Part shown: piece by piece, positions 5,722 to 61,250 of the stretch
Position numbering within the stretch: the stretch's first letter is position 1
Layout: each line of letters begins with the position of its first letter
Assembly (NCBI GenBank): GCA_905160935.1
Contig: CAJHZI010000518.1
Coordinates: 2,152,501 to 2,216,500, forward strand
Direction: 5' to 3'
Origin: Enchytraeus crypticus
Taxonomy: Eukaryota; Annelida; Clitellata; Enchytraeida; Enchytraeidae
DNA: 64,000 bases
Notes under the pieces: generated by a model
What the model was told of the DNA's origin: nothing
Databases searched by the model: none
Seen by the model: only the letters and a program-made list of their open reading frames with translations
Program-made: the position numbers and the translations under genes

Positions 5722-6035
5722 TGTTTTATAAATGTAATCTGTAATATTTTGTCTACGAGTTTTTAGGTAGGCCTACCATTTATTTCAAGCGCAGTGTAAG
5801 ATATACTAATAGTGGCATCCATTTAATACATACGAGGGTTGATCAATAGGTGCTGAAAAAAGCATGAAAAGTAGTTGTACTCCACTAAATAAATATTTCT
5901 GCTGACTAGCTTACTTGGTTAAGTGAAGTTTTTAAAGCCACGTGGGTGCCACTGTGGTTGCTAGGCAACCGTTCTAGTGATGTCTACCCAGCTGTAATTG
6001 TAAGCAATTGACAAGACGAAAATCGTGCTTTTATT

Positions 6036-6798
6036 AAATATTTACATTTGAAGGGTTTGACCCAAAGTGAGATTGCATTGGTCAGGAAGGAAGTTTTAGG
6101 AAACAATGCCCCTTCACAGGCTACAATCTATCTGTGGGTAGTCGGCTTCCAGCGAGGTAGGCAATCGGCCGAAGACGAGTACCGTTCAGGACACTCTGTC
6201 GAGACCTGTATCCAAGAAAATATTCGACGTATCCAGGATATGATAAAAAAGGATCGACGATTAAGCATCAAATGCATAGTTGATTGTCTTAAGTTGTCAT
6301 ATGGCACTACCCGTAATACTGGCGTTTTGGGTTACAACTAGGTGTGTACTAGATTAGTTCCACGAGTGTTGACGGATGAAATCAAGCAAGTCCGCTAACA
6401 ACTTCTCAGTCTTTCTCGATCTTGACAGGGCAGACCAGGCAAAGTTTCTTCACAGATATGTAGCTATGAATGAGAGTGAATGAGTGGACGAGACTTACGC
6501 TCACCATTTTGATCCGGAGCCGAAGCTGCAGAGTAAAAAGTGGAAACGCGTCACTTCACCGACTCCAGTCAAATTTAGCAAGATTGCGTCAGCAGGTAAA
6601 GTTACGGCATCCGTATTTTGGGGACAGTGAAGGTACATGTATACTGATAATTGGCTACTTAGAACGAGGAAAGTCTGTCACAGTCATCTACTGTGCAGAA
6701 ATAGTAAGAAAACGTTGTGCAGTTATCAAGGAAAATCGACGAGAAAAGTTGCTCAAGGTGTTCTGCTTAATCAGGGCAATGCTTCTGCTCAAACCTCC
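6036..6798 (+). pseudogene. Mariner transposase, N-terminal part
   Basis: Starts around the LKGLTQSEIALV helix, followed by FQRGRQSAEDEYRSG, the linker region typical of mariner (SETMAR-like) transposases, then IQDMIKKDRRLSIKCIVD. After 6341 the frame shifts repeatedly. The catalytic region is still visible as FDPEP near 6510, GKVTASVFWG near 6597 and a later LLNQGNASAQTS in place of the usual DNA(P)xH motif, so the second catalytic Asp is lost. The gene breaks at 6798, where a gypsy LTR begins, and its C-terminal part resumes at 10705. Confidence 0.85.
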
Positions 6799-8390: not shown

Positions 8391-9122
8391 ATGAGTCACT
8401 TATCGACACCGGTTCCTATAGACCTCTCAGCCAATCCATCGTCGGAATGGAAGAGATTCAGAAGCCAGTGGGAACACTATGAAATAGCAACGTATCTCGA
8501 TCAGAAGCCGAAATCTAAGCGTGCAGCAGTATTCCTGACGAGCATCGGAAAAGATGCCTACGAGTTATTTATGACTTTTGATATGACGAAAGAGGATGCA
8601 GCAGATATTCACAAGATATTGAATAAATTTGATCAGCACTTCATCGGGTATGTGAACGTGAACTATGAAAGATACATATTTAGCAAACGGAATCAAGAAC
8701 CGGGTGAATGCTTCGATGCATACTATAGCGATTTGCGTAGATTGGTTAAGTCGTGCAATATCGGAGAGTCAATTGAGTCATTATTGACAGACAGACTGAT
8801 ATTGGGCATCTAGAATGAATCTACAAGGCGAAAACTCCTTGAAATACGCGAGCTATCTCTAGGAAAGGCAATAAACATATGCAAATGCAACGAGTCAACT
8901 ACAAATCAACTGCGACAAATTATGGGTAACGGCTATTCAGCAGATAATCTGAACGCAATATCTAAGCGAAGAGATAGTCAGAGTAGCAGCACAACTGCAT
9001 TTAAAACATGTCAGAGCAGATTAGAGAACGCAAGGCCAGCTTCTAGAACATCAAATATGAGTGTTTTAAGAAAGTGTAATTACTGTGGCCGTAATCATAC
9101 TATGAAAAAACTTCATGCCTAG
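8391..9122 (+). pseudogene. Gypsy gag
   Basis: Gag-like protein for packaging of the element RNA. It opens MSHLSTPVPIDL, then EWKRFRSQWEHYEIAT and KRAAVFLTSIGKDAYELF, the N-terminal capsid-type region of many Ty3/gypsy gags. One in-frame TAG at 8811 interrupts it; the same frame then continues (NESTRRKLLEIRELSLGKA) to a zinc knuckle, CNYCGRNHTMKKLH, near 9079. A one-base shift at about 9123 moves the frame into the protease segment. It is near-intact but not translatable as one protein. Confidence 0.85.
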
Positions 9123-9124
9123 CC

Positions 9125-9880
9125 TACGGAAAGCAGTGTCAACGATACAACCATTTCGCCATAGTCAGCAAGAAACATACACAGCAGGACTACGACCAGG
9201 ACGAGCCACACGAAAGCTATAATGTCTTACGACTAGACCGTAAGCATGATTGGAGAATTTACTGTAATATTTATGTAAACGAACTTAAAATTAGATTCTT
9301 GTTAGATTCGGGAGCATCAGTAAACCTCATACCTATCGGAAAAGTCAGAGAGATGAATGTGCACCCGAGGGTGATTAAAGCGAAGTTGAGAATGTTCGGC
9401 GGCCAGGAGCTGAACACGACCGGTCGCGTTGAACTGATGGTACAACATCCAATCACAAAGCAGAGGGAGAAATTGAATTTTTATGTTACTACTCTTCATA
9501 AGGATCATATACTGGGTAAGGGCGCATGCGTACTATTCAATCTGATAAGTATTAATGCTCATAATGTACTGTACGGCCGTCGCACACGTACGCTGCTTCC
9601 GTCCGTTCAGAGACTCGGGGAGCCTTTGCCGTCAACAGTGGCAAGAAAGAAACTAGTCTAGACGCATCTAAAGAGAGACAAGCATACAATTACAACAGGC
9701 CAGCTAAACAGAGAAAAACGTTGAACGTAGACACAGTTGAATGGAGAAGAGACACCAGTCGACTCAAGGAGCTTGACGGAGAAAACTGGCGAAATGATCA
9801 AATTGTACCATCCCTGACCCATAGATCCTACGTTGTCAACAGAAGATGGCAGCATCAGACGCAGAACTTGAACCGATAAC
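9125..9880 (+). pseudogene. Gypsy protease fused to integrase tail
   Basis: The frame continues the zinc knuckle (YGKQCQRYNHFA), then shows the aspartic protease site FLLDSGASVNLIP at about 9296-9335 and ILGKGACVLFN. At about 9555 it passes directly, in frame, into NVLYGRRTRTLLPS, which in gypsy Pol proteins lies near the C-terminal end of integrase. After a stop at 9659 the frame again reads an integrase-tail-like segment (WRNDQIVPSLTHRSYVV, then NRRW). All of the reverse transcriptase, RNase H and integrase catalytic core are missing, presumably by one deletion. Confidence 0.75.
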
Positions 9881-18690: not shown

Positions 18691-18842
18691 ACCACACGTA
18701 TAACCGATGACGGGAAATATGAGACTGAAATATGCAGTAGGATATCACAAGCAAAAGTGGCCTTCGATAATAGGAAAGGACTTTTAACAAAAAGTCTGAA
18801 GAAAGAGACAAAGATAAAGATAGTGAAAACCTTGGTTTGTAC

Positions 18843-20070
18843 TAGAGATGGGAATTTTATGAATTTTCAGAGTTCGGGTTCGGTTCGGTTCGTTGAAAAT
18901 GAAAGTTCGGTTCGGTTTGGGTTGGGTTAGGAGTTGACAATTTGAGAGTTCCGTTCGGTTCGGTTCGTTGAAAATGAAAGTTCGGTTCGGGTTCAGTTCC
19001 AACAAGGGTTCGGGTTCGGTTCGGGTTCGGCTTGCTTTCCAACTCGCAAGAGTTCGATTCCAGTTCGAAATGGTTTGGTTTGGATAATGTTGCAATTGTT
19101 TAACTTTACATATAATAATTATGATTATGGCAAACATGTTTAAAATGGTTTATGGTAAATATGCTTAAAAATTAATTAAGCCATAATAGCTGCGACATTT
19201 TTTCACCTGGGTAAAAATATGACAGTGAAAAAAGGAGAGAAGTGGTATTTATTTCTGTACATTTCTTAAAATATTGCTAGTTGACCAACAAATATTCATA
19301 ATATAGATATTTAGCTTTATTATTGTATCTGAAATGGTTTCCTTGATTTTAACGAGCAATGCTAACATAATGCTAATATAATGCTTCATCATTTTTTAAA
19401 TTTTGATTGTCACTATAGGCCTATAAATATATAAATATATAAATAGATACGTTTATAATTAAGTGGAAATGTCTTGGCTAAAATTTGATCAATATTTCAG
19501 AGACAAAGTGCAATTTAGTAACATAAAAATGTCAAATAAATATGATTTAGTAAACACGTGTAATTCCATAGAAAAATGATCATAATATACATCGCTTGTT
19601 ATCAACTGACCAGTAATAAGCTTCATAACTTACCTTAGGGTTTCAAATTTTAAACTCTCAGATCAATTATGAAGTTGCGAAAATAGCATTGAAATTATTG
19701 CATTGCTATGGTGCAAAATTATTTACTTCAGATAGCCTTAACACATATAGAATGTCATAAATGCAAAAACTAAAACATATATTTGCATTGTTCGTACTAT
19801 CTATATTTAATGTCAGGCTGGTGAAGAAGAGAGGAACTCCAAAGAGTTTGGTTCAGTTCGGTTTGGACGAAGTCTGGGTTCGGTTCGGGTTCGGCCAGAG
19901 TCTGGGTTCGGGTTCAGTTCGGTTCGGCCAGAGTCTGGGTTCAGGTTCGGTTCGGTTCGGCCAGAGTCTGGGTTCGGTTCGGGTTCGGTCAGAGTCTGGG
20001 TTCGAGTTCGGTTCGGTCAAAATTCTAGATTTTAGGGTTCGGTTCAGGTTCGGTTCGATTCCCATCTCTA
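18843..20070 (+). mobile_element. Complete nonautonomous hAT, GGTTCGG arrays
   Basis: A 1228-bp element starting TAGAGATGGGAATTTT and ending AATCGAA-type complement ..GATTCCCATCTCTA. It is flanked by exact 8-bp target duplications, GTTTGTAC at 18835-18842 and 20071-20078, inside an RTE gene whose unbroken form at 63284 reads GGTTTGGACCACGC. The terminus fits the hAT pattern (YARNG) and the duplication length fits hAT. Next to both termini are arrays of GGTTCGG variants in the same orientation. The roughly 750-bp interior is AT-rich and has no transposase. Frames across the arrays (rich in Asn, Arg, Thr, Glu, Pro) are artefacts of the repeat. Confidence 0.9.
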
Positions 20071-28980: not shown

Positions 28981-29730
28981 GTCTATGGTTGGTTTCCAAT
29001 TATATATGGTTGGTTTTCCTTTTTGCTAGCCTCCGCTTGAATAATTTTTATGGTTGAATGCTTTGTGTTGTTACACTCTGTAATTAAATCGCTTATCATA
29101 TCAATCAAATTTCTCGTATTTTCAACCGTAAATCCTTTCCACATTTTACACTCTGTAATTAAATCGCTTATCATATCAATAAAATTTCTCGTATTTTCAA
29201 CCGTAAATCCTTTCCACATTTTACACTCTGTAATTAAATCGCTTATCATATCGATCAAATTTCTCGTATTTTCAACCGTAAATCCTTTCCACATTTTTTC
29301 TGTGATGCTTGTATTGAAGCGCTCCGCGACTGACGATTTATGTTCTCCAAATATAGAGTATCTATTAATACTATTTTATTTAACCAATCATCCATTTTCT
29401 TGTTGTAAAATTCTTTGCCCTGATCAACCCATAAATATCTAGGTTGTCTTTCTTATATGATAACACTATTAGTATAAATTCCTCTATACCTGTTTCACCT
29501 CTCTTGTATTTCAACAGAACGCTCCATGTAAACTTGGAAAATACATCAATGACGTTAAGCATGGATCTGTATCCATTATTAAGCCTACTCCATTCCTGCA
29601 TTCTAATTTTCTACTAATTCAGCACCCCACACATCGTCAACTCAAACACGTTCACTTGCCGTCTAGTCAATTTTCTAAGAATCGGTTTGTGTAATTCCTT
29701 TGCAATTTCTTTAAAGGGTCTAACTACTGA
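28981..29730 (-). pseudogene. Polinton/adintovirus-like integrase, copy A
   Basis: Integrase inserts element DNA into host chromosomes. On minus, going down from 29730: AKELHKPILRKLTRRQVNV, a stop-broken stretch, then MQEWSRLNNGYRSMLNVIDV with FSKFTW (first catalytic Asp), WVDQGKEFY at about 29400-29430 (second Asp) and SSVAERFN near 29330 (catalytic Glu). The order ELHKP, YLLNVIDVFSK-like and WVD.G.EFY-like is characteristic of the Maverick/Polinton retroviral-type integrase, not of LTR elements. The C-terminal NNTKHSTIKII..EASKKENQ follows. At least three frameshifts break it, and a 75-bp unit is triplicated in frame (29073-29297). Phospholipase and capsid-like genes lie just upstream on the same strand. 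Confidence 0.8.
29073..29297 (-). repeat. In-frame 75-bp triplication in integrase
   Basis: Three head-to-tail copies of exactly 75 bp (29073-29147, 29148-29222, 29223-29297), differing at about one position each. Each encodes 25 residues containing MWKGFTVENTRN and ending ITECK or ITECN, so the frame is kept throughout. Confidence 0.95.
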
Positions 29731-29734
29731 CGTT

Positions 29735-30280
29735 TCATTGGACCCCTTTATACGTTGTTTTGACATAAGGGCAAATTTGGCTTCACTTTTCATACATAGT
29801 ATATTAAAATGGCCGAATTTCTTTGCGCATTGTCATATCCAGAATCACTATTAATATCATACATTCTGTGAGTCAATGCTTCACTACTAATATTTCGGAT
29901 TCTAGTATCAGTGTTTTCAGTATAAAACTGATGATGTAATTAACACATTCTATCGACTTCATTAATCCCCTGATAACACTCTCGGTTTCGCTGTTCATAT
30001 TTAGTACCAGGACCACAACATGAATATTTATTTAAATTATTAAATGATTAGCTACATACTCTCCTAGCCTGGCATGTAAATGTAGTTATCCAACTGTATT
30101 TCCAACTACTGATAACACGTTATTAAACACACCCCGATCAACTTTTTTGTTGGTTATGAATCTCGACTTCTTTCTTTCGCACACGCTAGAAACAGCACTT
30201 TGCAGTTTTCTATTATTAGCAGTCAATCTCTCCTGTATTTGTATAAAATCAGTTTTCCTTTTACATTTCAAGCAGTACCT
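29735..30280 (-). pseudogene. Parvovirus-type phospholipase A2 protein, copy A
   Basis: Homologous along its length to copy B at 52032-52602. The N-terminal part is open on minus (KCKRKTDFIQIQERLTANNR, then RGVFNNVLSVVGNTVG at 30086). The phospholipase region follows in broken frames. Where copy B starts with ATG, this copy has AGG; the calcium-loop Tyr is replaced (CCGPG); and the codon for the catalytic Asp of the HD dyad is CAT, giving HH, next to a stop. The enzyme is therefore dead here. In virions of this type the domain breaches membranes during entry; that role is family knowledge. Confidence 0.8.
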
Positions 30281-30299
30281 TTTTATATATACAGTGGAT

Positions 30300-30414
30300 C
30301 AATTATATAAATTATATAATTTATATCAATATCAATATCATATATCAATATATTAATATTATATCAAAATATATAATAATATATTTAAGATATAATATAT
30401 TAATATTATATCAA
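30300..30414. repeat. AT-rich low-complexity tract
   Basis: Imperfect ATATTAATAT and TATCAATATC units between the phospholipase remnant and the LINE insertion. Confidence 0.7.
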
Positions 30415-31706
30415 AATATCAATTTGGATTTAGACCGGGTCATTCAACTATCGATGCACTCTATAGTTGTGTCAATATGATACGTATGGAAAAGGCTAAT
30501 AAGAACTTGGTTATGGGGTTATTCTTTAATTTCACAAAAGCATTCGACACAGTCGATCACAGTATTTTACTCGATAAACTTTGGCATTATGGTATACGCG
30601 GTATTGCTCATACTTGGTTTAAATCATATCTTTCAGACCGTTCCCAATATGTTGTCGTTGATAATGTTAAATCTACTGTTTTACCGATGAAACTTGGTGT
30701 ACCTCAAGGATCAATCTTGGGTCCTATCTTATTTTTAATATATATCATTAATATTAATGATATTCAAAATGCCTCTATTGAAGGATGTCTCTAGTTATGT
30801 GCAGATGATTCAAATACTTTTGTTAATGCCAATAATCTAACAGACATCTACAAAAAGGCGAATGTAAATGTAAAAAAGGTGAATTGAATGTATGTGAATT
30901 AGCGAATGGAGTAAGGCTAATAAACTAACTACTAACTGCTCCAAATCTGTCCACATGCTCCTATACCCATCGCAATGTAATGAGGATGATATATTAGCTA
31001 ATAACCTTGCTGTTACTGTTAATGGAAATGCTCTGTCAAGAGTTAAACTGGTTAAGTTTCTTGGTGTAAATATTGATGATAATTTAACTTTTTTGTGAAC
31101 ATATCAAAGGTATAACCTCTAAAATCAATAGCATCTGTAGTATGTTATACAGGAGCAGAGAGCTATTGCCTACAATATGCCGTAAAATCTATATTTTCTT
31201 TGGTGTTCAGTAGAATTTCGTACGGCCTTATAATTAATGGAAATAGTTGGGAAAAATCATTTCATCCTCTGCATGTAGCGAATCAGAGAGCCCTTAGGAT
31301 TCTCCAGATTCAAGAAAAACGATATAAAACCAAACTCGTTTATGAGAACTACAGTACCTTTGCCGATACATCTGTTGTATAAGTCTATGACTGCCAATAT
31401 GATTTATAAGTGTTTATATCACGAAGGATTCATGTCTACAGTTATAAAAGATATGTTTATATATGGTTATATATGTTTATATATGCTAACCTTTTAAATA
31501 GCGGCTATCAGACTAGGCTTTCGGTATCCAATTATCTTTCTTCATCTGCGAATCGTTCTAACTTCTCATCTAATGTATTTGAAGGATGCTCAATATGGAA
31601 TGCTATACCTACTGCAATTCGCAACTTAAACTTTTTTAATTCGTTTAAGGTGTCATATAGACTTTTCCTTACGGAATCTTGGTAATTATTGAATTATAAT
31701 TTAAAA

Positions 31707-32002: not shown

Positions 32003-32048
32003 GTTCTCTGATGCCTTATCGACTACTAGTTCTCTGATGCCTTATCGA
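31872..32048. repeat. (ACT)n microsatellite and local duplication
   Basis: (TACTGC)n then (TAC)n from 31872 to 32002. It is followed by CTACTAGTTCTCTGATGCCT..ATCGA twice in tandem (about 31997-32048). The second copy runs on into the capsid-like gene. Confidence 0.9.
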
Positions 32049-32800
32049 AGACCATTAGTGGAAATAGCTTTTTCAACATTCAGCATATCAATCTGTGTAC
32101 CTCCTATTATATGATTAACTTCATATTGTTCTCTCTTAAATTCGTCTGCCATGATGCAGAAATCTACATAGTCATTGGTAGCATAGTTTATTCTTGGTTC
32201 TTCTGCTGGATATCTCTCATCATTTAACTCAACAAGAGCGCTTGTCAAGTTAAGGTGATCAAATACAGAACAATTTTGTTCCTTTGTTCCTGATTTGTTA
32301 GTTTGAAATCCAACAATTAATTATCCATCTGGGCTTTCAATTCCAGCGGCTCTATTAATCATCTATTCATATTATTGTACATCTGCTGTAACTACAGTAT
32401 GCTGATAATTTCTACTACAAAAACTTTTTTGAATTTTCTTTTTAGTGACAACATACTCTCGCAGTGATGTTACTATTTCCATTGATGGTTTTATTCTTGG
32501 AACAGCCCATCCAAATATCCGTTAGTGAAACTTTACCTTCATAAACATTATTCGCTCTATGAATAGCCGACGTGTTATTCGCTCTAGTGAGCCTCAAATA
32601 TGTCCCAAATTGTAAAGTACTTTATATCCGGAAAATCCAAACATGTCTGAAAATGGAATGTTGAACAAGAATTGGTCTTGTGCATCATTGCTAAATAGTA
32701 GAGGTCGGCGAATCGCAAATATTTCTTTTAAAACAGGAAATATAACCAGTGACGTTGTGAAATGAATGGAAAAAATGGTCGCAATTGTTGGAGGTGGCAT
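32029..32800 (-). pseudogene. Capsid-like (double jelly-roll type) gene, copy A
   Basis: Minus-strand coding. The upstream part is open at 32594-32800: FAIRRPLLFSNDAQDQFLF, then FSDMFGFSGYKVLYNL. The downstream part is open at 32042-32248: VELNDERYPAEEPRINYATN and FCIMADEFKREQYEVNHI. Between them frames shift. The pattern matches a widespread animal-genome family that accompanies Polinton/adintovirus-like elements and is considered a major capsid (double jelly-roll) protein; that assignment rests on recalled family patterns, not on a search. Copy B at 52629-53500 aligns over the same span. A hAT insertion at 32811 truncates the 5' side. Confidence 0.6.
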
Positions 32801-33199
32801 GTATTTAGACTGCAGATGTTCTTAAACTGTGGGTTGAGACCCGAAAGTGGGTCGCGAGGATGGTCTCAGTGGGTCGCTAAGTGTCTCCAAAAACATTAAA
32901 AGCATAAAACCTAATATAAATCTTTATATAATTTTTATTAATTAGAATTTTATATCATCATTTCGCTAGTGCCATGCAGATAATTGAGCCTTACGCTGCT
33001 GTTTTCTTGCAGTTCGCTATTCGGCCAGCATAACGTGACATGACGATGAACTAGTTACTACTAGGGTTTAAATGCTGCAGCTGCGATTGACATGCTGCAG
33101 CAAAGGCTGTTTGAAACTTGTGTAGGGCCGGCAGGCCTATTTGACATTTCAGATAAATAATTATTCTGCTCTTTACGCATATTTTTGCCTTAACTTTTC

Positions 33200-35362: not shown

Positions 35363-36066
35363 TATATTATGATCATTTTCTGTGGAAGTAGGCCTACACC
35401 TGCTCACCAAATCGTCCCTATTTGACATTTTTATGTTAATAAATTGTACTATGTCTCTGAAATATTGGATCAAATTTTTCCCAAGACATTTCCACTTAAT
35501 TATAAATGTTTCTAATATATAGGCCTAGTGGCAAAATTTATTTTTAAATTGATGAAGCACTCTATTTGCTGATTATCAAAGAGACTATTTCAGATACAGA
35601 AATAAAGCTAAATATCTATTTTTTGAACATTTGTTGGTCAACTTACAATATTTTAAGAAATGTACTGGAATAAATACCACTTCTCTCCTTTTTCATTCTC
35701 ATATTTTTAATCAGGTGAAAAATGTGGCAGTTATTATGATTATAATTAATTATAATTAATTAAAATGTGGCAGTTATTATTTTAAACATGTTTATCATAA
35801 CCATGATTATTATAAGTAATGTTAAACGATAGCAACATTATCGAAACCAGGACATTTCGAACTCTTGTGAGGTAGAATGCAAGCCGAACCCGAACCGAAC
35901 TCGAACCCTTGTTCTAACCGAACCCGAACCGAACTTTCATTTTCAACAAACCGCACCGAACCGAACTCTCAAATTGTCAACTGCTAACCGAACCCGAAAC
36001 GAACCGAACTTTCATTTTCAACGAACCGAACCCGAACTCTGAAAATTCATAAAATTCCCATCTCTA
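35363..36066 (-). mobile_element. Partial nonautonomous hAT, GGTTCGG family
   Basis: Minus copy of the 18843 family: interior beginning near TATTATGATCATTTTCTGTGG, then CCGAACC arrays, then terminus AATTCCCATCTCTA at 36066. The other terminus with its array is missing. Confidence 0.8.
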
Positions 36067-36077
36067 CTTCATATGAT

Positions 36078-50689: not shown

Positions 50690-51255
50690 CTTCTGTTATT
50701 GTTGATTTTCGTCGAACTTGTCCTACTTGAAGGCAAGTAGTAATTCAATAAATTTAATTATTGACATCAAAAGTTATAAAGTCAAGGAATTATTCCGGTA
50801 GTAGGACTAGCTTTGGTTAAGTAGGCCCATTGGTCTATTTAAATTGAACCCACACTGTGATCTTTTATAGCTTATAGCCTTTTCATTTCTCATTTCTTTG
50901 AATTAAACCTCAACGAGCTGACCCATGTGCTTTAATTTACAAAGCTGACCAGCAGCCAATTCTCTCAATTAGATCTAAGTTAATAAGGGGAATATTTAGT
51001 AGAATTGGAAAGTAAGTGTTAAGTGAACTCGACGTAGATTCTTGAACTCAAAATCTAAGTACTTGTCAGCAATTTTTCAAAAGTCTATTCTTAGTCCCAG
51101 TCCTCACATCTATGAAAATGTTTGGCTCAATCTAGGTGGATCTGTTCTTATTTAAATTCAAATTATGAAATGTTGCAAATTTTAGTATGCCATCTTAATA
51201 TTATTGCAGCCAGATTTACAAATAATTATATATGACATTATATACTTGTTATTTG
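50690..51255. other. Unassigned AT-rich sequence
   Basis: No element or frame recognised. Confidence 0.35.
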
Positions 51256-52018
51256 TTAAGGCTATCTGGAGTAAATGTTTTTACACCACAGCAATGCATT
51301 AACTTTCATAACTATTTTCGTAACTTCATAATTGTCCCGAGAGTTTCAAATTTGAAACCCTAAGGTAAATTATAAATTTTACTACTGATACAGTTTATAG
51401 GAAACGGCACATATTATGATAATTTTTCTGTGGAAGTACAAGTGTTTACCAAATCCTCCTTATTTGATATTTTTAAGTTAATAAATTGCACTTTTTCTCT
51501 GAAATATTGGATATTTTAACCAAGACTTTTCCACTTAATTATAAACGTTTTTAATTTATAGGGTAGGCCTACTGACAAATTTTTTAAATTGTTGAAGCAT
51601 TCTATTTGCTGGTTATAATCAAGGAGAATATTTCAGATACAGTAATAAAGCTAAATATCTATATATTTTATGAACATTTATTGGTCAACTTGCAATATTT
51701 TAAGAAATATACAGGAATAAATACCACTTCTCTCCTTTTTCATTCTCATATTTTTACTCAGGTGAAAAATGTGGCAGTTATTATGACTTCATGTATTTTT
51801 AAGCACATTTACCATATTATACCATTTTAAACATGTTTGTCGTAATTACCGAACTCTTATGAGACGGAAAGCAAGCCGAACTCCAACCGAACCCTTGTTA
51901 GAAGAATGCCGAACCGAACCGAACTCTCAAATTGTAAACTGCTAGCCGAATCCGAACCGAACTTTCATTTTCAACGAACCGAACTGAACTCTGAAAATTC
52001 ATAAAATTCCCATCTCTA
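51256..52018 (-). mobile_element. Partial nonautonomous hAT, GGTTCGG family
   Basis: Minus copy of the 18843 family. Interior AACTTCATAATTGTCCCGAG through ATACCACTTCTCTCC, then CCGAAC motifs and terminus AATTCCCATCTCTA at 52018. The opposite terminus is absent. It abuts the Polinton-like block B. Confidence 0.8.
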
Positions 52019-52031
52019 CTAAAGGGTCCAA

Positions 52032-52602
52032 CTACTGACGTTTCATGGGACCCTTCTCTACGTTTTTGGACCCAAGGCCAAATTTGGCTTTGTTTTTCAT
52101 AATATAGTAAATTAAAGTAGCCGTATTGCTTAGCGCACTATCATATCTAGAATAACTAGCAATTTCAGACATTCTATGAGCCAATGCTGCGTCACTAATA
52201 TTTCGGTTGCAAGTATCTGTGTTTTCGGTATAAAACTGATCGTGTAATTTACACACTTTATCGACTACATTAATCCCCTGATAACCCTCTTTGTTTAGCT
52301 GTTCATATTTAGAACCAGGACCGCAATATGAATACTTATTTAAATTTGTTAAATGAGCCATTAGTTAGATACTCTCCTAGCCTGGCAGGCAAATGTAGTT
52401 CTCCAGCTGTATTTCCAACTGTTGATAACACAGTATTAAACACACCCCGACCAACTTGTGAGTTGGTTATGCATCTCGACTTTTTCTTCCATACACCCTA
52501 CCCTACAAACAGCACTTTGCAGCATTCTATTATTACATGTAGCAGCAACCTCTCCAATATTTGTATAGAATCAATATGCCTTTTACATTGGAAGCAGTAC
52601 AT
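52032..52602 (-). pseudogene. Parvovirus-type phospholipase A2 protein, copy B
   Basis: On minus the gene starts at ATG 52602 with a Cys pair (YCFQC), runs through a basic linker in broken frames, and shows GELHLPARLGEY (about 52420-52385). The phospholipase domain is open in 52361-52032: YCGPG at residues 12-16 (calcium loop), LHDQFY at 39-44 with the catalytic His-Asp pair at 40-41, then a helix with paired small residues. The order GPG, then HDxxY, is that of the secreted-type PLA2 domain of parvovirus VP1; the GELHLP segment before it and the neighbouring capsid-like gene fit the PLA2 proteins of Polinton/adintovirus-like elements instead of a parvovirus. Active-site residues are intact although frames upstream are broken. 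Confidence 0.85.
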
Positions 52603-52628
52603 TTTATATATGCGGTACGTTTTTTAAC

Positions 52629-53500
52629 TCACATTTTATAATGTGATTTGCAATTTGTAAAAATTGGAGTCTGACCATGGGATATTATTTTCAGCACTGT
52701 GTCTGAAAGTATTCTAACATGCATATGAGGATTTGCTGGAACATTTTGACTAAGTGTAAAGTTAAGTTTCATGGTCACAACATCAGACTTAATTTGTTAA
52801 CTCTGATGCCTTGCATCGAAGACTATTAGTGGAAATAGCTTTTTCAACATTCAGCATATCAATCTGTGTACCTCCTATTAAATGATTAAATTCATAGTGT
52901 TCTCTCTTAAACTCATCTGTCATGGAGTTGAAATCTACATACAACATTTGTAGCATAGTTTATTCTTGGTTCATCTGCTGGATATCTCATCGTTTAACTC
53001 AACAAGAGAGCTTGTAAAGTTAAGGTGATCAAACACAGCTGGATTTTGTTCCTGTGTTCCTGATTTGTTAGTTTGAAATCCAACAATTATTCATCTGGGC
53101 TTTTCAATTCCAACGGTTCCGTTGATCATCCATTTATATTCTTGTATATCTGCTGTAACTACAGTAAGCTGATCATTTCTACTACTAAAACTTATTGTAA
53201 TTTCTTCTACTTGCAACCAGCTCTCGCAGCGAAGTTATCGTATCAACTAATGGCTTTATTCTTGATGCCGATCTAATGTCCGTTAGTGAAACTTTACCAT
53301 CAAAATGATTATTCGATTTGCTATTCGCTCTAGTGAGCCTCAGAGTAAGTCGCAAATTGTAAAGTACTTTGATATATTCGGAAAATCAAAATAGGTGTGA
53401 AAATGGAATGCTGAATGAATATTGGCCTGGTGCATCATTGCTTATTAGTAGTTGTCGGCGAATCGCAAATCCGTCATTGCAATCTGGATTTTCTTACGAT
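52629..53500 (-). pseudogene. Capsid-like (double jelly-roll type) gene, copy B
   Basis: Nucleotide-level match to copy A over 32029-32720, plus the C-terminal end that copy A lacks. That end is open on minus at about 52788-52629: VVTMKLNFTLSQNVPANPHM, then HVRILSDTVLKIISHG, and a stop at 52629-52631. Upstream, frames are broken, but ELNDEYPAEEP-like and RRQLLISNDAPGQYSF-like readings are recoverable by eye as short pieces across frames. It ends only about 27 bp before the start of the phospholipase gene on the same strand, so the two were adjacent late-type genes. Confidence 0.6.
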
Positions 53501-53531
53501 GTAAAATGATTGGCAATAGTGTCTGCGCTGG

Positions 53532-54010
53532 CTGAAACTGTTGACCGAACAGAACTCGAACCCAGACTCTGACCGAACCCGAACCGAACCCGAACCCAGA
53601 CTCTGGCCGAACCGAACCGAACCCGAACTCAGACTAACATATTTTTTCACCGAACAGGTGAAAAAATATGGCAGCTATTATTACTTAATGAATTCTTAGG
53701 CATATTTACCATAAACCATATTAAACATGTTTGTCATAACCATGATTATTATAAGTAAAGTTAAACAATGGCAACATTATCCAAACCAAATAATTTCGAA
53801 CTCGAATCAAACTCTTCCGAGTTGGAAAGCAAGCCGAACTCGAACCCTTGTTAGAACCGAACCCGAAACGAACCGAACTTTCATCTTCAACGAACCGAAC
53901 CGAACTCTCAAGTTGTCAACTGCTAACCGAACCCTAACCGAACCGAACTTTCATTTTCAGAGAACCGAACCGAACCCGAACTCTGGAAATTCATAAAATT
54001 CCCATCTCTA
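53532..54010 (-). mobile_element. Internally deleted nonautonomous hAT, GGTTCGG family
   Basis: CCGAACC arrays on both sides (53533-53640 and 53815-53980) with only about 170 bp of interior, and terminus ATTCCCATCTCTA at 54010. The left terminus is missing. It is inserted within or just upstream of the capsid-like gene of block B. Confidence 0.8.
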
Positions 54011-54018
54011 GTTATAAT

Positions 54019-54175
54019 ATGAATCACTTGCAGTTAAATCAATTCCAATACCATCAGAATTACTATTAAAACCGGCTTTACTCTGTGGAATAAAGGACGA
54101 TTATTGCGACTTTTTTTTATACTGTTGTAAACTATTATTGACGATCGTTGAGTGAATATTTGGCACTTCTATCTC

Positions 54176-54241
<66 letters not shown>

Positions 54242-54600
54242 ATAATAATATTTAAAAGTAAAAATTTTTAATCCACGGATCGATTTTTTAATTTTTCTAG
54301 TAGAGTCTATCTCTAGTGATTTTGATGTTAGCCCTCTATTGTATTTACTGTTGCTTTTTCGGTGACGCTTTCTAATGAGTGCTTTACCACCTTCTGTCAT
54401 TCAAAATGCTGCAATATCACCTGCTGCTCCTAGCAAATGCTTTGAATTAAAATCTGTATTCTGATAGACTTGCAAACCGATACCATTCAGTGTATCGTCA
54501 AATCTTCGTCCATGTATTAGCGTTTCTTTTGAACTGTATGTGTCAGGGACCTGATTCTACAATTTTATCTGTGGTAAAATAAGATCCTGAGATTAAATGT
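54019..54600 (-). pseudogene. Unrecognised coding remnants upstream of capsid block B
   Basis: On minus: GRRFDDTLNGIGLQVYQNTD then FNSKHLLGAAGDIAAF (54560-54400), a stop, and MTEGGKALIRKRHRKSNSKY (54400-54340), a strongly basic segment. Farther on, SKAGFNSNSDGIGIDLTASD reads at about 54090-54020. The pieces lie upstream of the capsid-like gene on the same strand, so they may be additional virion genes of the Polinton-like block. I do not recognise the family; a (TA)n at 54181-54238 interrupts it. Confidence 0.4.
54181..54250. repeat. (TA)n and (AAT)n microsatellite
   Basis: 58 bases of uninterrupted TA followed by AATAATAATA. Confidence 0.95.
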
Positions 54601-59367: not shown

Positions 59368-61250
59368 TGGGTTACTAAAATGGTAAGAAGAAAACGAAAA
59401 GCCAAAAAAGATGCTTGGAACAATTATAAAAATAGTAATAATGAAGAATCATTTTACTGTGAATGTATGAAAAAGCTTAATAAATCGGTTGCAGAAAATA
59501 GAAAAGCCAAGTCAAAATTTGAAAAACAGCTAGCTAGCAATCTAAAGAATGATGCAAAGAGTTTTTTGCCTATGCTAATGCTAACAAAAAGGTTATTAAA
59601 AACATTGGTCCTTTAAGAGATGAATATAACAATATTATAGAAGATAATAAAGATAGTGCAAACTATTTTAATAAATATTTTTCGTCTGTATTTGTGGAAG
59701 AAGATTTAGTAAATATGCCAGTACCGGATAGGATCTTCAAAGGCAAGTTTGAAAGCTCTTTACATAATATTGAGTTTGATATTGATGATAAATTAAATTC
59801 GCTAAATATCAATAAAAGTCAAGGTCCAGATGAGATTCATGGAAAACTAGTTTCGGAGCTAAGAGATGAATTAGCACCAGCCCTATTAAACCTACTAAAA
59901 GCTTCAATGAAAACAGGGGTGGTTCCTCAAGATTTTAAGAATGCCAATGGTGTACCAATCCATAAAGGGCGGAATAGGGATAAAGCAGAAAAATATAGGC
60001 CTATAAGCTTAACAAGTATAATCGGTAAGACATTTGCAAGCATTATTAAGGATAAAATAATTAGTTTCTTGGAAGAATATAACTTAATTAGAAATAGTCA
60101 GCATGGTTTTATTAGTGGGCGTTCTTGTTTAACTAATTTGCTAGATTTTTTAGAATATATTACAAAGGAAGTAGATAATAAAAATAGCATTGATATCTTA
60201 TATCTACACATATATCTAAAGCGTTTGATAAAGTTCCACATAAAAGATTACTTAGTAAGTTGGAAGCACATGGAATAACGGGCAAACTTTTAAAGTGGAT
60301 AGGTAATTGGTTAAGCAATAGAAAACAAAGGGTATGTGTCGAGGACGAGTTCTCTGAATGGGCAGCAGTAAAGAGTGGTGTGCCACAGGGCTCCGTTTTA
60401 GGACCTCTATTATTTTTAGTTTACATCGATGACATTGACATAGATATTGTATCTAAATTTAGAAAATTTGCAGATGATTCAAAAGTAGTAAAGATAATAA
60501 ACAAGATTGAAGATACTGAGATTTTAAAGTATAATATAAGAATATTACAGAACTGGTCTAAGGATTGGCTAATGGAGTTCAATGCTGAGAAATGTAGAGT
60601 TATGCATGTAGGGAATAATAATTTAGAAATTGAGTACACATTGAACAATATAAAACTAAAATCCACAAACAGTGAGAGGGATTTAGGAGTCCTTGTGGAT
60701 AGCTCTTTTAAATTTAGTGAAAATTGTAATAAAGTTGTAAATAGTGCTAACTGCGTATTAAGAATGATTAAAAGAACAATTGCAAGGAAAAATAAAGATA
60801 TTGTGGTAAGGCTATATAAGGCTCTTGTACGGCCCAAACTTAATACTGCTTTCAGGCTTGGTGCCCATATCTTAAGAAAGATATCGATAAATTAGAAAAG
60901 GTACAAGCCAGAGCAACAAGGCTGGTATTTGATTGTCAAAAACTTAGTTATGAGAATAGATTAAAATTCGTAGGATAAACCTCTTTAAGTAAGAGAAGCA
61001 CTAGAGGAGATTTAATAGAAGTTTTTAAGATACTCAAAGGCAAAGTTAACCATAGTTGTTGGTTTGATTTATCAAACAACAGAAACACTAGGGGACATAT
61101 TTATAAACTTAGTAAATCTAGACGTAGACTAGATTTAAGGAAATTTTTCTATAGTCAGAGAGTTATGAATGCTTGGAATAGTTTGCCAAGCGACGTTGTG
61201 TAAGCGGAATCAGTAAATGCTTTAAAAAAATATATAATAAACATAAGAAC
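59368..61250 (+). pseudogene. CR1-group LINE reverse transcriptase
   Basis: RRKRKAKKDAWNNYKNSNNE (59395), KSQGPDEIHGKLVSEL (59815), EKYRPISLTSIIGKTF (59985), QHGFISGRSCLTNLLDFLEY (60100), a frameshift near 60215 inside the first catalytic motif, GVPQGSVLGPLLFLVYIDDI (60378), KFADDSKVV (60465, catalytic pair intact), FNAEKCRVMHVGNN (60580), RDLGVLVDSSFKF (60680). After a shift at 60840 the C-terminal domain continues to 61200. Two or three lesions interrupt an otherwise readable enzyme, so the copy is fairly young. Confidence 0.88.

Follow-up and report, generated by a model that had tools for sequence, protein, structure and literature searches.

Two decayed copies of a probable Polinton-type element with a zinc-ribbon phospholipase A2 gene in Enchytraeus crypticus

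What kind of element left a parvovirus-type phospholipase A2 (PLA2) gene in the genome of the annelid Enchytraeus crypticus? The window analyzed here is the 64,000-nucleotide stretch from position 2,152,501 to 2,216,500 of contig CAJHZI010000518.1 (assembly GCA_905160935.1). It very probably holds two decayed endogenous copies, A (29-33 kb) and B, of one Polinton/Maverick (adintovirus-type) double-stranded DNA element. The initial annotation of copy B had described a minus-strand PLA2 gene with the motifs YCGPG and LHDQFY next to a capsid-like gene. The features of both copies are listed in Table 1.

The PLA2 part of copy B is the ORF 52032-52364, and both motifs are present in it on the minus strand. 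In the Pfam scan, this ORF matches PF08398 (Phospholip_A2_4) with E 8.7e-7 and 29.6 bits against a cut-off of 23.9, which bears out the annotated enzyme type; PF05826 gives a weak match with E 0.02, below cut-off. A PLA2 profile built from 31 related proteins, with the window's own row excluded, scores the ORF at 3.3e-51, and has zero matches at E<=1 in the reversed window and in three of three mononucleotide shuffles. Among ten positions checked in an alignment of 32 rows (the window and 31 of the 81 relatives), all ten are invariant in 32 of 32 rows: C14, G15, P16, G17, D35, C38, H41, D42, Y45, and D58. From its sequence, the copy B ORF is confirmed as a member of the parvovirus-type phospholipase A2 family.

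Copy A, which had also been annotated, is present: segments 29712-30290 and 32032-32720 are about 82% identical to segments 52020-52611 and 52801-53470 of copy B, respectively. Its PLA2 pieces score 1.5e-18 and 1e-15 with the relatives' profile.

The gene is longer than the annotated PLA2 part and begins with a zinc ribbon, which the annotation had not named. The ribbon lies upstream of the PLA2 part in the same gene; that of copy A passes the cut-off, while copy B has a decayed version. The copy A ribbon matches PF18930 (DUF5679) with E 5.5e-8 and 33.2 bits against a Pfam cut-off of 27, and reaches 2.6e-16 with the relatives' profile. In copy B, the same profile matches 52339-52497 with E 1.4e-12, while 52501-52623 scores only 0.083. 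The copy B gene is also broken, with its linker part and PLA2 part in different frames. By hand count, PF18930 and PF08398 occur together in 67 of the 81 relatives, PF08398 alone in 13, and PF18930 alone in one. The relatives are 121-193 amino acids in length, a range partly set by the search, which was limited to proteins between 0.55 and 1.75 times as long as the query (110 amino acids) and placed longer ones outside its scope. A literature search for DUF5679 found no paper on this domain.

The annotated spacing of about 27 bp between the capsid-like and PLA2 genes is a real gap of 26 bp, measured from the stop of ORF 52629-52796 (putative capsid gene) to the ATG at 52602. It leads to the start of the zinc ribbon, and from that ATG it is about 270 bp downstream to the PLA2 motif.

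The capsid-like gene had been annotated upstream of PLA2 in copy B. Its pieces have 82% identity, over 52801-53470, to the copy A stretch that holds a match to PF21738, but when scanned alone against Pfam they match no double-jelly-roll (DJR) or other jelly-roll family. The ORF 52629-52796 is assigned to this gene by position only. In copy A, 32045-32320 matches positions 187-255 of 316 of PF21738 with E 2e-5 and 24.4 bits, under the curated 27. The remaining copy A capsid pieces match no Pfam family, though they are homologous to copy B. With a match that is significant but below cut-off, the copy A neighbor of the PLA2 gene leans toward being a putative DJR-type capsid piece. The basic coding remnants annotated farther upstream in copy B are present at 54104-54556 and match no Pfam family.

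Behind the copy A PLA2 gene, the sequences IDVFSK, WVDQGKEF, and AERFN can be read by eye, and we take these pieces to be those of a candidate rve integrase. No search of any kind gave an integrase match for the copy A pieces. Subtracting the positions by hand gives 101 nucleotides between the second acidic residue and the Glu, which is not a whole number of codons. Three units of 75 bp, about 98% identical and in frame, lie inside these pieces at 29071-29297. No second copy of the integrase-like pieces exists within the window. Just behind them, a 45-bp stretch at 28839-28883 matches its own reverse complement at 89% identity. Profile searches suggested in the initial annotation for PLA2, DJR capsid, and integrase returned the first above cut-off, the second below cut-off and in copy A only, and the third not at all.

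Table 1. Coordinates of the features assigned to the two copies and to the sequences inserted in or next to them.
Feature	Copy	Positions	Strand	Basis
Integrase-like pieces, several frames, with 75-bp tandem triplication	A	28983..29720	minus	By eye
PLA2 part, broken	A	29727..30044	minus	tblastn, 63% identity over 106 residues to copy B ORF
Zinc-ribbon (DUF5679) part of PLA2 gene	A	30089..30298	minus	PF18930 match
LINE reverse-transcriptase remnant, inserted	A	30396..31685	plus	Reverse-transcriptase-like ORFs by eye
Putative DJR-type capsid gene pieces	A	32042..32821	minus	PF21738 match for one piece; others homologous to copy B
Second TTCGGTT-rich repeat, starting right after PLA2 gene	B	51411..52020 (may reach 51228)		Matches 35364-36068 and 18953-19588
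PLA2 part	B	52032..52364	minus	Open stretch of 110 amino acids, calcium loop YCGPG, His-Asp pair
Zinc ribbon and linker, first part of PLA2 gene, broken	B	52336..52602	minus	Relatives' profile; ATG at 52602
Putative capsid (DJR-type) gene pieces, 3' part, several frames	B	52629..53493	minus	Homology to copy A
TTCGGTT-rich repeat, interrupting	B	53541..54012		53638-54012 and 18841-19221 share 85.9% identity
Basic and possible capsid N-end remnants, AT microsatellite between	B	54008..54556	minus	ORFs; assigned by position, guess

Both copies are dead fossils, judging from their sequence. In each of them, stops and frame changes disrupt both the capsid gene and the PLA2 gene, and present-day activity of either copy is therefore not expected. 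Mismatches between A and B in the PLA2 ORF are 16/109, 18/108, and 18/110 for the three codon positions. Summed by hand over the PLA2 ORF and three capsid pieces, they are 37/267, 39/265, and 39/268; single capsid pieces have small and uneven counts (for example, 6/40, 1/40, and 4/40). The even spread over codon positions appears to fit neutral decay, as judged from the counts alone.

Different repeats interrupt the two copies. A LINE remnant and microsatellites break up copy A between 30291 and 32031, and apart from AT-repeat matches this segment has no counterpart in copy B, which has 189 bp there. Two members of a TTCGGTT-rich family cut copy B, one of them at 52020. The repeat at 53541-54012 ends in a motif common to other family copies, and 51228-51420 matches 19579-19762. 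The family as a whole is at least about 700 bp in length, has a common end motif, and is found at 51228-52020, 53541-54012, 18840-19762, and 35364-36068.

The order of the genes on one strand is DJR-type capsid, zinc ribbon and PLA2 gene, and rve-like integrase, the last in copy A only and by eye. The Polinton/Maverick or adintovirus reading follows from this company, because such elements carry this set of genes: a small zinc-ribbon PLA2 with a DJR-type capsid piece and an integrase-like gene as neighbors. PolB, packaging ATPase, and adenovirus-type protease gave no match among the selected pieces near the copies (Pfam scan of 35 piece submissions, one made twice and some overlapping). These being the only genes recognized in the two copies, the source could have been a smaller PolB-less or non-autonomous Polinton derivative with capsid, PLA2, and integrase only, spread as a family of its own. 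We consider this improbable: copy B is cut at 52020, both copies are interrupted, and other genes may simply be lost. The apparently intact insect Mavericks with PLA2 described in the available text of PMC5803895 also have PolB, ATPase, and protease.

An endogenous parvovirus (densovirus), with the PLA2 as the N-terminal part of VP1, would explain the family of the enzyme, which is that of VP1 (PF08398) and has the same calcium loop and His-Asp pair. Among the named matches to viral structure models, most are also densovirus or parvovirus proteins. Yet copy B does not have its PLA2 as the leading domain of a VP jelly-roll protein. Its ORF stops at 52032, 38 residues past the end of the Pfam match, and the relatives end alike; for this reason the predicted PLA2 is not part of a parvoviral capsid protein. 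This C-terminal end and the N-terminal zinc ribbon are common to the relatives found within 0.55-1.75 times the query length, and in the window the fusion partner of the enzyme is DUF5679 and not a VP jelly roll. The neighbor here matches a double jelly roll with E 2e-5, below cut-off, whereas a single one is characteristic of parvoviral capsid proteins. A jelly roll in these proteins is described in the available part of PMC4061559. A small protein that stops after its PLA2 domain, next to a DJR-type neighbor, led to rejection of a parvovirus remnant, which is very improbable here; the initial annotation had taken the same side, and its choice of a Polinton/adintovirus-type remnant is supported. 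Domestication of the PLA2 gene by the host for a cellular use was likewise rejected as extremely improbable. In its favor, the copy B PLA2 part is still open over 110 amino acids with its catalytic His-Asp pair; against it, the A/B differences are even over codon positions, the broken first part of the gene has its linker in another frame, and a repeat starts directly behind the stop.

The Polinton/Maverick reading agrees with published elements, and the annotation was right that PLA2 is known in some Polintons (PMC4642659 and PMC5803895, in their available parts). In 2015, some Polintons were reported to carry a parvovirus-type PLA2, probably packaged for entry (PMC4642659, available part). 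They resemble the window in being double-stranded DNA elements with a PLA2 closest to the parvovirus capsid domain, for which an entry role is proposed there, while the window has two dead fragments without recognized core replication genes. PLA2-bearing insect Mavericks were described in 2018 (PMC5803895, available text). Sf Maverick 1 and 2 of Spodoptera frugiperda share with the window a parvovirus-type PLA2 ORF; they have an integrase in the element, for which the window offers a candidate read by eye. They are apparently intact, with PolB, ATPase, and protease, whereas the window copies are decayed fragments. In the available text, the PLA2 protein goes by the name 'CAP', the authors report that they found no PY capsid, and there is no mention of a zinc ribbon, which the window gene has. 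The PLA2 gene of the window has a separate DJR-type piece as its neighbor, which makes an accessory enzyme the better fit and speaks against naming the PLA2 protein a capsid.

A 2013 figure legend (PMC3671162, available part) explains a PLA2 label in a figure that compares virophages with Polintons and viruses. A phospholipase cluster is common to a Polinton-like virus group and virophages, according to the available part of PMC7805220. Adintoviruses are defined by a PolB with an OTU-like N-terminus, a hexon, and an rve integrase with a chromodomain, as given in the available part of PMC11071296. They are animal-associated double-stranded DNA elements with a hexon-type capsid and rve integrase, for which the window has a putative capsid piece and a candidate integrase; their defining PolB and integrase chromodomain were not seen in the window pieces, nor was a C-terminal integrase end recognized. 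A literature search pairing adintovirus with phospholipase A2 found no paper, and the available part of PMC11071308 does not mention PLA2.

In a living element, the putative integrase would insert the DNA and the capsid would form a particle. The PLA2 would travel in that particle and help it through a host membrane during entry, a role that has been proposed in print for Polintons by analogy with parvoviruses. As a membrane-cutting PLA2 is already a known accessory gene of some Polinton-type elements, the find is ordinary; it adds a Polinton-type fossil to the host genome. The recurring zinc ribbon and PLA2 architecture offers a modest clue to the way in which the enzyme might be carried by such elements. 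It is conceivable, if rather unlikely, that the fusion marks a distinct and widespread animal Polinton-type lineage with intact members elsewhere, whose ribbon anchors the enzyme on packaged DNA or on the capsid and whose PLA2 is carried inside the particle as a separate internal protein.

Other pieces were noted in the window. Upstream of copy B, a minus-strand open piece of 75 amino acids at 55867-56094 matches no family above cut-off and, as a guess, might end another gene of the element. On the plus strand, three pieces have matches below the Pfam cut-off: 6012-6341 resembles the mariner transposase domain HTH_48 (E 6.6e-4), 9095-9661 is aspartic-protease-like and belongs to a gag-type retroelement (PF13975, E 3.8e-5), and 59553-60278, which falls just short, encodes part of a LINE reverse transcriptase (PF00078, E 2.1e-6).
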